Assembly (NCBI RefSeq): GCF_000732605.1
Contig: NZ_JPME01000010.1
Coordinates: 124,036-188,035 of the forward strand
Direction: 5' to 3'
From: Lacrimispora celerecrescens
Lineage (GTDB): Bacteria; Bacillota; Clostridia; Lachnospirales; Lachnospiraceae
Length of the DNA stretch: 64,000 nt
The translations under genes were made by a program, and so were the position numbers. Below are positions 14,611 to 38,654 of the stretch, piece by piece (positions within the stretch are counted from its first letter, which is position 1; the number at the start of each line of letters is the position of its first letter). The notes below the pieces were generated by a model, which saw only the letters and a list, made by a program, of their open reading frames with translations, did no database searches and was not told the DNA's origin.

Positions 14611-14626
14611 GACTCTTAATTGAATA

Positions 14627-14737
14627 ATATCTTCAGGGCAGGGTTCAATTCCCTACCGGTGGTAAAGCCCACGAGCCGCAAGGCATGATTCGGTGTGATT
14701 CCGAAGCCGACAGTATAGTCTGGATAAAAGAAGATGA
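14627..14737 (+). promoter_or_regulatory. FMN riboswitch (RFN element)
   Basis: The conserved RFN core is plain: CTTCAGGGCAGGGTT, ATTCCCTACCGGTGG, AAGCCCACGAGCC, GATTCGGTGTGATTCCG, AGCCGACAGT and the closing GGATAAAAGAAGAT that pairs with the 5' ATCTTC. Binding of FMN should favour the downstream terminator and shut off riboflavin synthesis when flavin is plentiful. Confidence 0.97.
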
Positions 14738-14771
14738 TAAGTCACAGTATTTCTGTGTATATGTAAATTCG

Positions 14772-32935: not shown

Positions 32936-34297
32936 CTACATTTCTTCCGGACATGACATCCCAAGTAAACTACAAGCATCCAAGATCATCCTTTGAGCCA
33001 AATCTACAAGAATTAATCTCGCTTGTTTTGTCTTCTCTTCGGCCTGTAGAAACAACACCAACTTTATTTGCTGCTTCTTCCTTATCCGGCAAATCGGGGT
33101 TTTTATCTTCTATTAAATGATACGCACGTTCAATTGCTTCATTCAAAATATCCTCAGCATAAATAATATTGCCATTACGGGAAGATAACTTTTCTCCCTC
33201 CAGGCTTACTAAGCCATAGGCACATGAATAAGAGTATCCGCCCAATCATACCCCATCACATCTATTGCTTTAAATACCTGTTTAAAATGTAAACTTTGTT
33301 CCACACCTGTGACATACAGACATTTATCAAAACCATAATTTTCTTTTCGATACAGAATGGCAGCAATATCCCTGGAATGATAGATAGAACCACCGTCACT
33401 TTTTGTTATTAAACATGGAGGCATATCATAATCTGATAAATCAATGATATTTGCTCCCTGACTCTCTTTTAATAATCCCTTATTCTTTAATTCTTCTACT
33501 AAGGAAGGAACCTTATCACGATAAAAGCTCTCCCCATCATAAGAATCAAAAGAAACTCCCAGTAATTCATATACACGGGTAAATTCAAGCAAACTTATTT
33601 CTTTAAACCATTTCCATATCTCAATCGCTTCTTCATTATTCTGTTCCATCTTTACAAACCATTGCCGGGCTTCATCGACCAATTCAGGATTCTTTTCCGA
33701 TTCTGTATTAAATTTCACATAAATACGAAGTAATTCTTCAATTCCTTTTTCCTTAACAGTTGCTTCATCGCTCCATTTTTTATAAGCAACAATTAGTTTT
33801 CCAAACTGCGTTCCCCAATCCCCTAAATAATTAATGCGAACAACCTTATATCCCAATTTTTCATAAATCCGATACAAAGAGTTACCAATTACCGTGGTAC
33901 GTAAATGACCAACGTGGAAATTCTTAGCTATATTAGGGGAGGAATAATCCATGCATATAGTTTTTCCTGACCCGTTTTTCACGATTCCGAATTCAGGTTC
34001 CTTCATTTTATCAATCCAATATTGTATATATTTTGTGCGATTCATAAATATATTTAAGTAACCGTTTACCGCCTCTAACTTCTCAATTCCCAGTTCTCCC
34101 TGTACTTCCTGCATTGCTCCTTTCAGTTCCTTTGCAATTATTGTGGGATTCTTGCGTAGGACTTTTGAAAAAGAAAAACATGGAAGAGCAAAATCTCCCA
34201 TTTTATCTTCGGGAGGAATTTCTATTAACTTCATCACCTCATACTCACTCAAGTTTCCCAGGGTATTTGCTATACATTTGCATATTTTTTCTTTCAC
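32936..34297 (-). pseudogene. argS: Arginyl-tRNA synthetase, disrupted
   Basis: The 5' part reads as ArgS up to DWADTLIHVP: N-terminal Arg-tRNA-synt-N domain, the HIGH-type motif SSPNIAKNFHVGHLR, and DSYDGESFY. Near 33220 one base is missing relative to the expected HVPYGLVSLEGEKL, and reading resumes in another frame through KLSSRNGN (the KMSKS loop) to AANKVGV. After that, a jump and another frame change lead straight to RLILVDLAQRMILDACSLLG and CPEEM-stop (32936), the normal C-terminus. Roughly 110-120 residues of the catalytic and anticodon-binding (DALR) regions are lost. It cannot make active ArgS, so a functional copy must exist elsewhere. Confidence 0.88.
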
Positions 34298-34330
34298 ATT
34301 GGAACCTCCTATTTTATTATTTTATAAAAT

Positions 34331-34378
34331 AAAAAAGAACCGCAATAGATCAGCATATGCTAAATCAATTACGGTTCT
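34331..34378 (-). terminator. Attenuator terminator upstream of argS
   Basis: On the minus strand AGAACCG(T)AAT pairs with ATT(G)CGGTTCT and is followed by TTTTTTA, 30 bp before the argS start. Being upstream of the gene and behind a short Arg-rich ORF, it has the position of a transcription attenuator. Confidence 0.75.
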
Positions 34379-34398
34379 GCTATAAACTATGAACATCC

Positions 34399-34437
34399 CC
34401 GCATAGAAACAAGACGTATAATCTTGCAACTATGCGG
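34399..34437 (-). promoter_or_regulatory. Leader hairpin carrying a sequence complementary to the Arg codons
   Basis: CCGCATAG pairs with CTATGCGG, with an inner CAAGA/TCTTG stem. Its loop side contains TACGTCTT (minus strand, 34411-34418), which can instead pair with either of the two AAGACGTA copies formed by Arg codons in the leader ORF. This gives two exclusive folds depending on where a ribosome sits. Confidence 0.55.
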
Positions 34438-34453
34438 ATTATCTTTGCATCAG

Positions 34454-34495
34454 TTACAAGAGCTTACGTCTTTCTCTACGTCTTAAGCTGTTCAT
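34454..34495 (-). CDS. Arg-rich leader peptide of argS
   Basis: A 13-residue ORF, MNSLRRRERRKLL, starts at an ATG 12 nt after AAGGGAGG and contains five Arg codons in six positions (AGA CGT AGA GAA AGA CGT). It lies between the upstream gene stop and the attenuator hairpins of argS, and its stop precedes them by about 17 nt. Ribosome pausing on Arg codons when charged Arg-tRNA is scarce would change leader folding, as in amino-acid biosynthesis attenuators. This would be an unusual control for a clostridial synthetase gene, where T-boxes are the norm. No T-box consensus is present. Confidence 0.65.
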   Translation of the reverse strand: MNSLRRRERRKLL

Positions 34496-34519
34496 TATCA
34501 ATCTATGCCTCCCTTGCGT

Positions 34520-35767
34520 TCAATCCGTGTATGGTTTCGCAAATCTTTTTTCATAAGCACCATTCTTCTTAAGATTGAAATCCCAATAGTAGTTTGTTAA
34601 TCCGGTTAATGAGAATATAGAAAATAGTATTTGAGTACCTTTTGATAGGTATTCCGATTTTTCATATTCTTTTTTCAAGCTTAAATCCATAATTCCCTTA
34701 CCGGCATACGTTCTGCCTATTTGCTCCATTTGATCATAGAACTTTTTGTTGGCTTTTTCTGGTTTCATTTGAAGACCTTCCACACCGCCTTTTATAATTG
34801 TTCCGTCGAAGGAAACCCCTAACCTTTTAGTAATTAATTCAAGATATGGTCTCAAATAGTACGACTGGCTAGTCTCTGGAAAACCGGACTGAACTAAAAA
34901 CGCCATATGTACTTCTTTCTTGTTAATTGGTTTAAGCTGTTCAAAAAATTTCATTACTGCCCCCGGCATAGCGTGAACATAAAGCGGAAAAACGAATAAA
35001 TTATTTTCAACGGAACTAAAATTCTCAGCCCAATTTTTCTGTTCTCTTATATTTATCAGATTCCTAACTTCTACATTTTCTACTCCCTGTGCCTTCATCC
35101 CCATAATTATCTTTTCAATAATCAGCTTACTGTTAGAATGGTCCCCTCTTGGCGATCCATTATAAATTACCCATTTACCGTTCGTTTTTCTTTCCAAAAC
35201 TTCTTTAGACAGAGCCTCTTCCAAAGGTTTTGCAATTTCTATGTTAGTTGTTCGTATGCTTTTGTTTTCATATATAATTTCTTTACAAGAACTCTGAAAA
35301 TGATATGCCATTCGAGTAAGATAGTCCTTTATGACTTTTACTTCCTCATTACTTAACCCATCTTTCTCAAAATAGAAGTTTATAACAGGGTATTTATCAT
35401 ATCGTTTCAAGTGAACGCATTCCCCATTTTTTATTTTAATGTATGGTAAATAATGTTGTATTAATCGATCCAGAAATGTTTTTCCCTTTCCATCAATAAA
35501 GCCATTTTCTGTATGAAATAAAATAACCACTTCATCACTATTTATATAATCCTTATACAATTTATACGCATCATCGTTCAAAGCACATTTTCCAGGGGTC
35601 TTCCACCAACAACTCCAGCATCCAATACAGTCCTTTATTTCGGTATCAATAGAATCATAGACTATTACATCCGTTTCTTTGTTCGTATCCTTATAATATT
35701 TCTTTATTTCTTGAGCCGGTGATTCATTACTTATGTTTTTCCCCAAATCAAAAATTGTTATTTTCAT
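34520..35767 (-). CDS. Tandem flavodoxin-fold NAD(P)H-dependent oxidoreductase
   Basis: The 415-residue protein contains two flavodoxin-like domains. The first (1-185) has DCIGCWSCWWKTPGKC, a Cys motif like iron-sulfur flavoproteins; the second (about 197-415) starts KWVIYNGSPRGDHSNSK, the FMN phosphate-binding loop of NADPH-dependent FMN reductases. It likely binds FMN and possibly an iron-sulfur cluster, and transfers electrons to unknown acceptors. Its ATG overlaps the stop of the PadR gene by 4 bp, so both are one operon. The first domain lacks a clear phosphate loop and may be structural. Confidence 0.83.
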   Translation of the reverse strand: MKITIFDLGKNISNESPAQEIKKYYKDTNKETDVIVYDSIDTEIKDCIGCWSCWWKTPGKCALNDDAYKLYKDYINSDEVVILFHTENGFIDGKGKTFLDRLIQHYLPYIKIKNGECVHLKRYDKYPVINFYFEKDGLSNEEVKVIKDYLTRMAYHFQSSCKEIIYENKSIRTTNIEIAKPLEEALSKEVLERKTNGKWVIYNGSPRGDHSNSKLIIEKIIMGMKAQGVENVEVRNLINIREQKNWAENFSSVENNLFVFPLYVHAMPGAVMKFFEQLKPINKKEVHMAFLVQSGFPETSQSYYLRPYLELITKRLGVSFDGTIIKGGVEGLQMKPEKANKKFYDQMEQIGRTYAGKGIMDLSLKKEYEKSEYLSKGTQILFSIFSLTGLTNYYWDFNLKKNGAYEKRFAKPYTD

Positions 35768-36540: not shown

Positions 36541-38454
36541 TCAATCAATCATAAAACAGGCTACGCCAACATTATCCAACGTAATGATTGGTTTGCAGCG
36601 GAATGCCTTGCAGCAGTTATCAGACATCCTTACTTTTAAGATATAAAAGCCTTCATAAGGAACTGTAAACTCAAAGCATCCACAACCGCATATCTGTACA
36701 CAGCACAGTAACGTATCGATGTCGTTGCATCTCTCATATAATTTTACATCCCAATCATGGAAGCTATTGCAGCAACAGCCCCAGATACATCCTGAAATAA
36801 TACAGGGTTTAATCAGGCATTCCTCACAAACAGGGCAGGGTTCCGGTTCCGGACATTCTGCGGGAATTGGTATTGGAACTGGAATAAATACCGTTTCCGG
36901 TTCTGGGCAGGTTGGGCATGGCTCTGGGATCGGGCACGGAGGACATGCAGGACAGGGTTCTGGTACCGGACATGGTGGACACGGTGGCGGCACCGGACAC
37001 GCTGGGCAGGGTTCTGGTACTGGACACGCTGGACATGGTGGTGGTACCGGGCACGCTGGGCAGGGTTCTGGTACTGGACACGCTGGGCAGGGCTCCGGCA
37101 CAGGGCAAGGTGGGGGTGTCGGACATGCTGGGCAGGGTTCCGGTGCGGGACAAGGCGGTGGTACTGGACAAGGTGGCGGTGCTGGACAAGGTGGCGGTGC
37201 TGGACAAGGTGGCGGTACCGGGCATGCTGGGCAGGGTTCCGGCACAGGGCAAGGTGGAGGTGTCGGACATGGTGGGGGTGTCGGACATGGTATTGGTGCC
37301 GGACATGGTGGTGGTACCGGACATGGTATTGGTGCCGGACAAGTTGGGCATTCCGGACACACCGGAATAGGCTGTTCTTCCCTAGCCGGTAGTACCTCCG
37401 GAGCCGGTGCCACAGGGGCTGGTGCTGCAGCTGGACATATTACGCCTCCAACAAAGGGGTAAAAATGAAATTCAAAGCCGCTCTCAGCATTTACGGCAAA
37501 AGATCCTAAGGCAGCATTGCCGCTTACATGGCCGCCAGTCGGATGCGCATGGAACATCGCCTGTGGTGCCAATATACTTCCCCAAATATCGGAGGATTTT
37601 TCCATATAAATATTAGTTGCATCCTCAAACACATACAATATCTGATTAGCCTTACTTCTTTCCCCATAAACACCGTATTGCAAATGGGCATTTGCTCCTG
37701 TTCTAAGCCTTACAATAACGGTACTTCCTTGTGGAACTTCTGCACGTATTCCTTTATTGATTAAACCATTTGGCCTTACATCAATAAGGAAAACATTCTG
37801 TACAGGGTCATTGCCCCTTAAAATCCACTCGTAATTATTATCCACTACTGTTCCATTTGGAGTTATAGATTCAATACATTCTTTGTAGAATCCGATGCTT
37901 TCCCTGGCATCGCTAAAAAATCTAGGTATATTAGCACCTATCCTGCTCGCGGGTATAAATCTTGGTACATCATAACTGGGAACCACATAATGATCACCTT
38001 TATCCGATGGTGTCCAATATTGGCTGCCTCCATTGGCCTGATACAGGAATTTCAGTTCTTGTATCCCATCATTCATACCATCTTTTCCAATTAAATAGGT
38101 ACTTCCCTTGGCTGCATTGAATCCACCGCCCACAACCACATGGCCGATCACAACCAAAGGGCCGCCCATCGATACATTGCCGCCAACTAAAAAGCGAACT
38201 AAATCCGGGGAGTAGCTGACTGCTTTATTTCCTTTACTGACAAAGCCAACACTCAACCCCCTTGGGCTGTAAAAACTTCCGCCTATTGCTACAGGCCCTT
38301 CAATATCTATAATGTTATTAGCATCGTTAAATACAATAACATTAAATCTTGAGGCAGTACCAAAAGGCTGACCCGCAATATTATACCAATTTATATTATC
38401 ATAAGGTAATCCTGCACTTGTCATTGCTTCATCACTATAGCTGATATTGTCCAT
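36541..38454 (-). CDS. Choice-of-anchor-A-type surface protein with a long Pro/Cys repeat
   Basis: About 637 residues. The N-terminal 330 residues (FNVIVFNDANNIIDIEGPVAIGG, VSMGGPLVVIGHVVVGGGFN, IYMEKSSDIWGSILAP) match the choice-of-anchor A/pAdhesive domain. From about residue 350 to 540 the protein is built from PCPxP and PACPVP units, a Pro/Cys tract with dozens of Cys. A 95-residue C-terminal domain is again Cys-rich (CIWGCCCNSF, CCVQICGCGCFEF). There is no signal peptide or sorting motif, which would suit a spore-surface protein made inside the mother cell; this is inference. I use the ATG at 38454, preceded by GCAGGAG, instead of a GTG 33 bp upstream. Confidence 0.8.
   Translation of the reverse strand: MDNISYSDEAMTSAGLPYDNINWYNIAGQPFGTASRFNVIVFNDANNIIDIEGPVAIGGSFYSPRGLSVGFVSKGNKAVSYSPDLVRFLVGGNVSMGGPLVVIGHVVVGGGFNAAKGSTYLIGKDGMNDGIQELKFLYQANGGSQYWTPSDKGDHYVVPSYDVPRFIPASRIGANIPRFFSDARESIGFYKECIESITPNGTVVDNNYEWILRGNDPVQNVFLIDVRPNGLINKGIRAEVPQGSTVIVRLRTGANAHLQYGVYGERSKANQILYVFEDATNIYMEKSSDIWGSILAPQAMFHAHPTGGHVSGNAALGSFAVNAESGFEFHFYPFVGGVICPAAAPAPVAPAPEVLPAREEQPIPVCPECPTCPAPIPCPVPPPCPAPIPCPTPPPCPTPPPCPVPEPCPACPVPPPCPAPPPCPAPPPCPVPPPCPAPEPCPACPTPPPCPVPEPCPACPVPEPCPACPVPPPCPACPVPEPCPACPVPPPCPPCPVPEPCPACPPCPIPEPCPTCPEPETVFIPVPIPIPAECPEPEPCPVCEECLIKPCIISGCIWGCCCNSFHDWDVKLYERCNDIDTLLCCVQICGCGCFEFTVPYEGFYILKVRMSDNCCKAFRCKPIITLDNVGVACFMID
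36840..37370 (-). repeat. Low-complexity repeat coding for PCPxP units
   Basis: Within the surface-protein gene, short units reading CCxxCCxxxCC on the coding strand repeat in tandem with small variations for about 530 bp. Because of the base bias two other frames stay open as well, but they lack ribosome sites. Such tracts change length by slippage or recombination. Confidence 0.85.
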
Positions 38455-38654
38455 ATAAACTCCTGCAAACTGCTCGATTTGCAACACATTTTCATTCTCA
38501 ATTCAGTTTATTCTAGCGTAAATGGTTCTGTGCAGTTTTCTATGCAATTGGACGAAATTTTATGATAATTTTCTGAAATTCATCGAAATTTATGTAAATG
38601 TGGACACGAAAAAATTAATACAACAAAGCCATTTTTACTGAGATCAAGCTTATA

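Follow-up and report, generated by a model that had tools for sequence, protein, structure and literature searches.

A putative ribosome-mediated attenuator with an arginine-codon leader peptide before an auxiliary arginyl-tRNA synthetase gene in Lachnospiraceae

We have analysed a stretch of 64,000 nucleotides from Lacrimispora celerecrescens (the window), in which a short reading frame rich in arginine codons precedes an argS-like frame. Conservation, covariation, computed state-dependent folding and association with an auxiliary arginyl-tRNA synthetase gene, called argS2 here, all point to the leader being a ribosome-mediated transcription attenuator of argS2, and we regard this as very likely. 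The leader appears to be an undescribed RNA family, since it has no Rfam match.

The elements of the window are summarized in Table 1. On the minus strand the order is a flavodoxin/FMN-reductase-like gene, the leader ORF, the hairpin region, the terminator, an AGGAGG sequence and the argS-like frame. The stop codon of the flavodoxin-like gene ends 24 bases before the leader ATG. Five of the 13 codons of the leader ORF encode arginine, and the intrinsic terminator (approximately 34331-34378) has a T-run at its end. A previous reading of the DNA (the sequence-only reading) had described the ORF, the hairpin and the terminator before argS, and its coordinates were right. The leader RNA folds with z = -7.7 against 200 dinucleotide shuffles, with 0/200 as low. 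An Rfam search at the window leader gave sub-threshold matches only, with no T-box or other family at or above its gathering score, which bears out the earlier statement that no T-box lies upstream. A match of the leader to trpB scored 29.4 bits against a gathering score of 59, and was rejected. Rfam T-box matches were likewise absent from six relatives' loci and from the housekeeping argS locus.

Table 1. Features of the argS2 leader region in the window.
Feature	Position	Strand	Details and basis
Leader ORF MNSLRRRERRKLL	34454..34495	minus	ATG 34495-34493, TAA 34456-34454; sequence
AGGGAGG, possible leader ribosome site	34508..34514	minus	sequence
R1, first Arg cluster AGA CGT AGA, probable control codons	34475..34483	minus	codon and pair counts
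R2 AGACGTAAGCTCTTGTAA, second Arg pair to stop codon, pairs with D	34454..34471	minus	paired cells, compensatory changes
A CCGCATAG, partner of B when the ribosome is at the stop codon	34430..34437	minus	264/266 cells paired
D TTGCAAGAT-TATACGTCTT, partner of R2	34411..34429	minus	pair counts
B CTATGCGG, strand with three alternative partners R1, A and T5	34399..34406	minus	pair counts, masked folding
T5 AGAACCGTAATTG, terminator 5' arm, partner of B in the antiterminator	34366..34378	minus	covariation, folding
T3 CTATTGCGGTTCT and T-run, terminator 3' arm	34331..34348	minus	sequence
AGGAGG, argS2 ribosome site	34305..34310	minus	sequence
argS2 pseudogene	32939..34297	minus	tblastn of intact relative; TIGR00456 argS
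Flavodoxin/FMN-reductase-like gene, unbroken, directly upstream	34520..35767	minus	gene comparison

The sequence-only reading had suggested a search for Arg-rich leaders followed by a terminator before argS. A pattern scan of genome_contigs (one genome per species, 84,980 species) yielded another 36 leader loci, of which two come from a single MAG and almost all, by title, from Lachnospiraceae. The titles include Lacrimispora, Anaerocolumna, Butyrivibrio, Lachnoclostridium, Herbinix, Acetatifactor, Hungatella, uncultured Clostridium and unnamed Lachnospiraceae, and one MAG carries the label Paenibacillaceae. In 10/36 the title names the gut of deer, buffalo or goat. The pattern found 0 leaders in viral_contigs. 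An argS2 frame follows the leader in 25 of the 36 loci, with no stop in the available part; 19 of these frames reach the last residues and six run to the end of the available DNA. Nine loci lack argS2: the six whose leaders are Glu-rich, L089, and two in which the available DNA stops 238 and 5 bases past the leader. The terminator is present in 36/37 leaders, and the 37th locus ends too early.

Pairing was counted for three alternative structures in an alignment of 38 leaders (A5), whose rows are related, so that the counts are not independent events. R2:D is paired in 257/266 and 301/304 cells, the RRR codons of R1 with B in 175/190, A:B in 264/266, B:T5 in 312/325, and T5:T3, followed by the T-run, in 400/418. 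Strand B has the form CTRTGCGG. In the window the second Arg pair and the stop codon have TACGTCTT and TTGCAAGA as partners, and CGTAG of the first Arg cluster (34476-34480) is the part that pairs towards B in the ribosome-free state. Two structures, R2:D with B:T5, and R1:B with R2:D and T5:T3, lie above 500/500 shuffles in percentage paired, double-sided changes and covariation score. In further pair types the antiterminator structure is matched by 239/500 shuffles, and R1:B with R2:D and T5:T3 by 21/500. A:B with T5:T3 lies above the shuffles in percentage paired, and 1/500 has as high a covariation score; it is not above them in double-sided changes, of which A:B has none.

The covariation check proposed for the hairpins gave compensatory changes in R2:D, R1:B and B:T5. 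In R2:D the pair 43-95 changes from G-C to A-U in 5/38 leaders, with single cases at 42-96, 44-94 and 49-88. A CGT codon of the second Arg pair becomes CAT (Arg to His) with a matching change in D in 5/38, so that the base pair is kept and the Arg codon is sacrificed. Between the second RRR codon and B, C-G is replaced by U-A in 6/38. In B:T5 the pair 106-153 changes from U-A to C-G in 4/38, and as this T5 position is outside the counted terminator stem, the change points to the antiterminator itself. The bases are unpaired at 106-153 in 12/38 and at 30-106 of R1:B in 9/38. The antiterminator partner, previously called not obvious, is thus found in the 3' arm of the hairpin, where covariation and folding pair B with T5. 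Both copies of AAGACGTA (34477-34484 and 34465-34472) had been thought to pair with TACGTCTT (34411-34418). This holds for the second copy, but the first has 0 double-sided changes and is unpaired at one position in 30/38 leaders, and was rejected.

The codons of the two clusters are kept to different extents. In the 30 in-frame Arg-type leaders (the window plus 29 scan loci) there are four to seven Arg codons in the last 13, and Arg is found in 88/90 codons of the first cluster and 53/60 of the second. This fits the first cluster providing the control codons, and the second being retained chiefly for its pairing. None of the supported helices includes the opening Arg codon of the first cluster, which is nevertheless Arg in 30/30. 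A Trp/His-type attenuator with Arg codons before argS, as originally suggested, is supported by conservation, covariation and folding, but the roles of codon and pairing are divided between R1:B and R2:D.

We propose that the switch would have three states. When no ribosome is present RRR:B and R2:D would pair, the terminator T5:T3 would form, and the gene would be OFF. With plentiful Arg-tRNA a ribosome at the stop codon would cover R2, A would pair with B, and the terminator would again form, leaving the gene OFF. A shortage of Arg-tRNA, or impairment of the housekeeping ArgRS, would halt the ribosome in the RRR cluster, where it would cover R1. R2:D would then form with A in its loop, and B, being free, would pair with T5, so that no terminator would form and argS2 would be ON. 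Three parts of this scheme are inferred: uncharged tRNA-Arg as the signal, termination and readthrough inside cells, and charging of tRNA by ArgS2.

We folded transcripts of 36 leaders ending just before T3, with a 30-base ribosome mask and the stop codon numbered 0. The median expected number of B:T5 pairs is 0.01 without a ribosome and 0.0 with the ribosome at the stop codon; for an A site at codon -10, -9 or -8 it rises to 11.7, 11.5 and 11.1, respectively. All 30/30 in-frame Arg-type leaders have their first Arg codon at -10 or -9. Mean values behave alike across seven footprint sizes. A ribosome that has not yet reached the Arg cluster (A site -15 to -11) also allows B:T5 to form, which means that timing must play a part. 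Some leaders go against the scheme. B:T5 forms without a ribosome in L083 (8.7), L084 (11.7) and L095 (4.2), and is kept at the stop codon in L079 (7.5) and L083 (4.0). It is lost at the first Arg codon in L064, L067, L082 and L080, and by half in L074; in L067 this is because upstream RNA pairs across the ribosome. In the window and L073 it is lost at the second and third Arg codons. When RNA behind the ribosome is omitted, L064, L067, L082, L080 and L074 recover at codon -9 (9.3-11.8), and L073 recovers throughout the cluster, but the window does not; the stop-codon state is then only partly OFF, with a median of 4.9 B:T5 pairs. From these exceptions it follows that RNA-polymerase pausing and folding order must matter. 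The leaders have the sequence features of trp/his-type attenuators, i.e. a leader ORF of cognate codons, an intrinsic terminator and a downstream gene for the same amino acid (25/36 loci), and, by computation and with exceptions, an exclusive antiterminator that depends on ribosome position. As a separate observation, GGTTCATAGTTTA after B in L067 (Lacrimispora) pairs in the folding with the leader's own start region, possibly a further layer that would hide the leader start codon.

The same switch could in principle be thrown by an antibiotic, with a macrolide-like drug stalling the ribosome on a nascent R-x-R motif and turning the gene on. An Arg-x-Arg motif is present in RRR and in RSR, many leaders remain within the ON range when the stall is at the third Arg codon, and an Arg-Leu-Arg uORF before hflX is read in this way in an excerpt of PMC8632094. 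Against this, Arg-type leaders make up 30 of the 36 scan loci, 28 of them with downstream DNA; in 25 of these an arginyl-tRNA synthetase gene, argS2, comes next, in two a remnant of one, and in L089 no argS2 body. We know of no protection from ribosome drugs by ArgRS. Drug sensing is very improbable, and we retain attenuation in response to the supply of Arg-tRNA.

The regulated gene is, to judge from sequence comparison, an auxiliary argS and not the housekeeping gene. The sequence-only reading had named argS as the regulated gene; an argS does follow, but it is of the auxiliary type and a pseudogene in the window. The genome has one other argS match, with 606 codons open and 33% identity, of the type common to most of the family. 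The region upstream of this housekeeping argS has no such leader, and its locus no Rfam match. In a sample of 299 family genomes, including this one, an argS2-type ArgS (at least 56% identical to that of the window) is present in 27, of which seven also have a housekeeping argS and 20 have the argS2 type only. The leader is present in 7/7 of the two-argS genomes and 0/20 of the sole-argS genomes. A covariance model built from 11 leaders, and run over loci apart from the window's own, found the leader at 10/10 argS2 loci (six other two-argS genomes and four more of the genus), at 0/20 sole-argS loci and at 0/18 housekeeping argS loci. A second model, from 38 leaders, gave no convincing match in the 20 sole-argS loci. 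Relatives with an intact argS and no leader had been named as evidence that would count against the attenuator; they are found, but solely as sole-argS species (20/20 loci). In an ArgS tree of 35 rows the 11 leader-bearing proteins form one clade (support 99/98), which lies inside the sole-argS group on midpoint rooting. As expected of an auxiliary synthetase, argS2 is a second gene of the same specificity, in a distinct clade and of patchy occurrence. Among 24 further genomes of the genus, argS2 is present with an open frame in four and as a fragment at the edge of a contig in one. Searches with the RNA model detected the leader in 10/397 family genomes and, class-wide, in 1/391, this being the own genome only. 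The search of the order matched 8/392 genomes, three of them falsely; these weak matches (L105-L107) were plain terminators on reading, and were rejected.

Some leaders occur without the gene. L077 and L096 have only C-terminal remnants of argS2, and L089 seemingly retains only its start, with a leader frame that ends early. In L059, a second copy in G368, the terminator is followed about 100-230 bases on by a blaI/blaR1-like pair. G007 and G115, found in the family RNA-model search, have the housekeeping ArgS only, yet carry a leader without argS2. Such orphans would be explained if the leader RNA acted mainly as a small RNA in trans, or if the peptide had a function of its own, and L059 has a compensatory change with no argS2 close by in addition to the remnants at L077 and L096. 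However, the orphans fit recent gene loss, and where argS2 is present in cis (25/36 loci) its alignment starts 89-168 bases past strand B in 24/25. We therefore consider a role mainly in trans very improbable, and control of argS2 in cis is the reading that we adopt.

Six leaders (L065, L066, L068, L076, L081 and L090) are Glu-rich, e.g. NSLERREEERRLL. GAA is the first codon of the first cluster in 6/6, and of the second in most. All six keep the terminator and lack argS2. A methyltransferase (Pfam) lies downstream of L068, L076 (examined as L060), L081 and L090. An acetyltransferase is next in L068 and L081 (Pfam) and in L090 (by likeness), and L066 precedes an acetyltransferase.

The system of the window itself reads as a relic, with a broken argS2, loss of the relatives' leader start and promoter match, and a weakened antiterminator. 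Matching an intact relative by tblastn, residues 1-360 lie at 34297-33218 in one frame (79% identity), residues 349-415 at 33239-33054 in another, and residues 529-565 at 33049-32939 as a third piece; about 113 residues (~416-528) are absent from the window. The first 362 codons are open, and the frame change falls inside the catalytic region. Among the 36 scan-locus peptides most leaders start 5-6 codons earlier than that of the window, e.g. MNTFYMNSLRRR..., and the sequence just upstream of the window leader start is unlike that of relatives. Its AGGGAGG stretch does not align with the relatives' ribosome site (alignment A1). In 23/36 leaders the best promoter match of a scan, made without shuffles, has TTGnnn and TAnnnT boxes 17 or 18 bases apart, and ends 81-91 bases before the leader stop codon. 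The best match of the window is weak and lies at 129 by the same measure, within the flavodoxin-like gene, and a consensus promoter scan of the leader strand gave only a 9/12 match whose second box runs into the leader start codon. Upstream DNA of the relatives, used as query against the own genome without a positive control, gave no match. Strand B is followed by GG in the window and by T in relatives. The antiterminator of the window is weaker: at codon -9 its B:T5 has 8.0 expected pairs, where the median is 12.1, and at -8 it is lost. The leader, hairpins and terminator are all present, and with 362 open codons the element might be thought to work as it stands, controlling a shortened, split ArgRS. 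Given the frame change, the missing residues, the altered leader start and promoter region and the weaker antiterminator, this is highly improbable. The loss of gene and promoter region makes the window copy a relic.

The argS2 cassette sits between the flavodoxin-like gene and a convergent epoxide-hydrolase-like gene. The former shows 87% identity in G317 and G318 along its full 415 residues, and in G318 a GNAT acetyltransferase gene (L118 2792-3325) lies between the flavodoxin-like and hydrolase-like genes, at the site that holds the leader and argS2 remnant in the window.

What ArgS2 might do is hinted at by sites that hardly vary among the sole-argS proteins but differ in ArgS2. Among them, residues 307-308 are Ala-Thr in the sole-argS proteins (Ala 20/20, Thr 19/20), and His-Ser in the window and in 21/22 of the scan relatives that reach the position, L073 having Pro-Ser. 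On alignment to yeast ArgRS the His-Ser falls between Tyr347 and Asp351, which we take to be arginine-binding residues; a literature search found no paper confirming this. The change is a hint of resistance or altered discrimination, a lead rather than a result. Most ArgRSs discriminate poorly against canavanine according to an excerpt of PMC10018355, and an excerpt of PMC7590051 discusses the arginine analogue indospicine, from Indigofera legumes, in relation to rumen animals. Tentatively, an inducible defence may be imagined as a whole. ArgS2 would be an ArgRS whose remodelled arginine pocket excludes a plant or microbial arginine antimetabolite, or an ArgRS inhibitor, met by Lachnospiraceae that live in guts or degrade plants. 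Poisoning of the housekeeping ArgRS, with ribosomes halting at Arg codons, would turn it ON, and the switch would elsewhere have been recoded to a Glu/Arg mixture and moved before a methyltransferase-acetyltransferase operon. We offer this as speculation that is possible but rather doubtful. The patchy occurrence of a second ArgRS may point to some agent by which the housekeeping enzyme is impaired.

Attenuators of this general kind are known. In the his and trp operons of enterobacteria the state is OFF without a ribosome and with full translation, and turns ON only when the ribosome stalls on the control codons; the proposed switch shares this OFF/OFF/ON logic by ribosome position. It differs in that B has three partners, the ribosome-free RNA forms a single long nested hairpin in which the control codons take part, and what is regulated is a tRNA synthetase. 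The T-box of Firmicutes synthetase genes senses charging of the cognate tRNA and controls a terminator. The argS2 leader would likewise sense tRNA charging and control a terminator, but has no T-box match. The closest parallel in biology is trpRS1 of Streptomyces coelicolor, an auxiliary, indolmycin-resistant TrpRS reportedly placed under ribosome-mediated attenuation by Vecchione and Sello in 2010. Both have an auxiliary beside a housekeeping synthetase, a leader peptide of cognate codons and a terminator. The amino acid is Trp instead of Arg, the host is Streptomyces and not Lachnospiraceae, and the resistance belongs to trpRS1. The uORFC-8-2 motif before cysS of Rhodobacterales has a Cys-codon leader, read as giving stalling-dependent readthrough in an excerpt of PMC8632094. 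It resembles the argS2 leader in placing cognate codons before a synthetase gene, but concerns Cys and Alphaproteobacteria, and that excerpt mentions no duplicated synthetase. Open-licence literature contained no Arg-codon leader or attenuator before an arginyl-tRNA synthetase gene among the matches listed, and nothing related on Lachnospiraceae leader peptides and attenuators. The argS2 leader would extend trp/his-type attenuation to a synthetase gene in Clostridia, a class in which T-boxes are expected, and its covariation-supported three-way competition for strand B would provide a compact model of attenuation.

Two further features of the window were observed. An FMN riboswitch at 14625-14739 (110.8 bits) is the only Rfam family to reach threshold there. 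On the minus strand, a 648-residue frame at 36541-38487 has a long Pro/Cys repeat (CPxPEPCPACP type), and by its look alone is possibly a surface or spore-coat protein.
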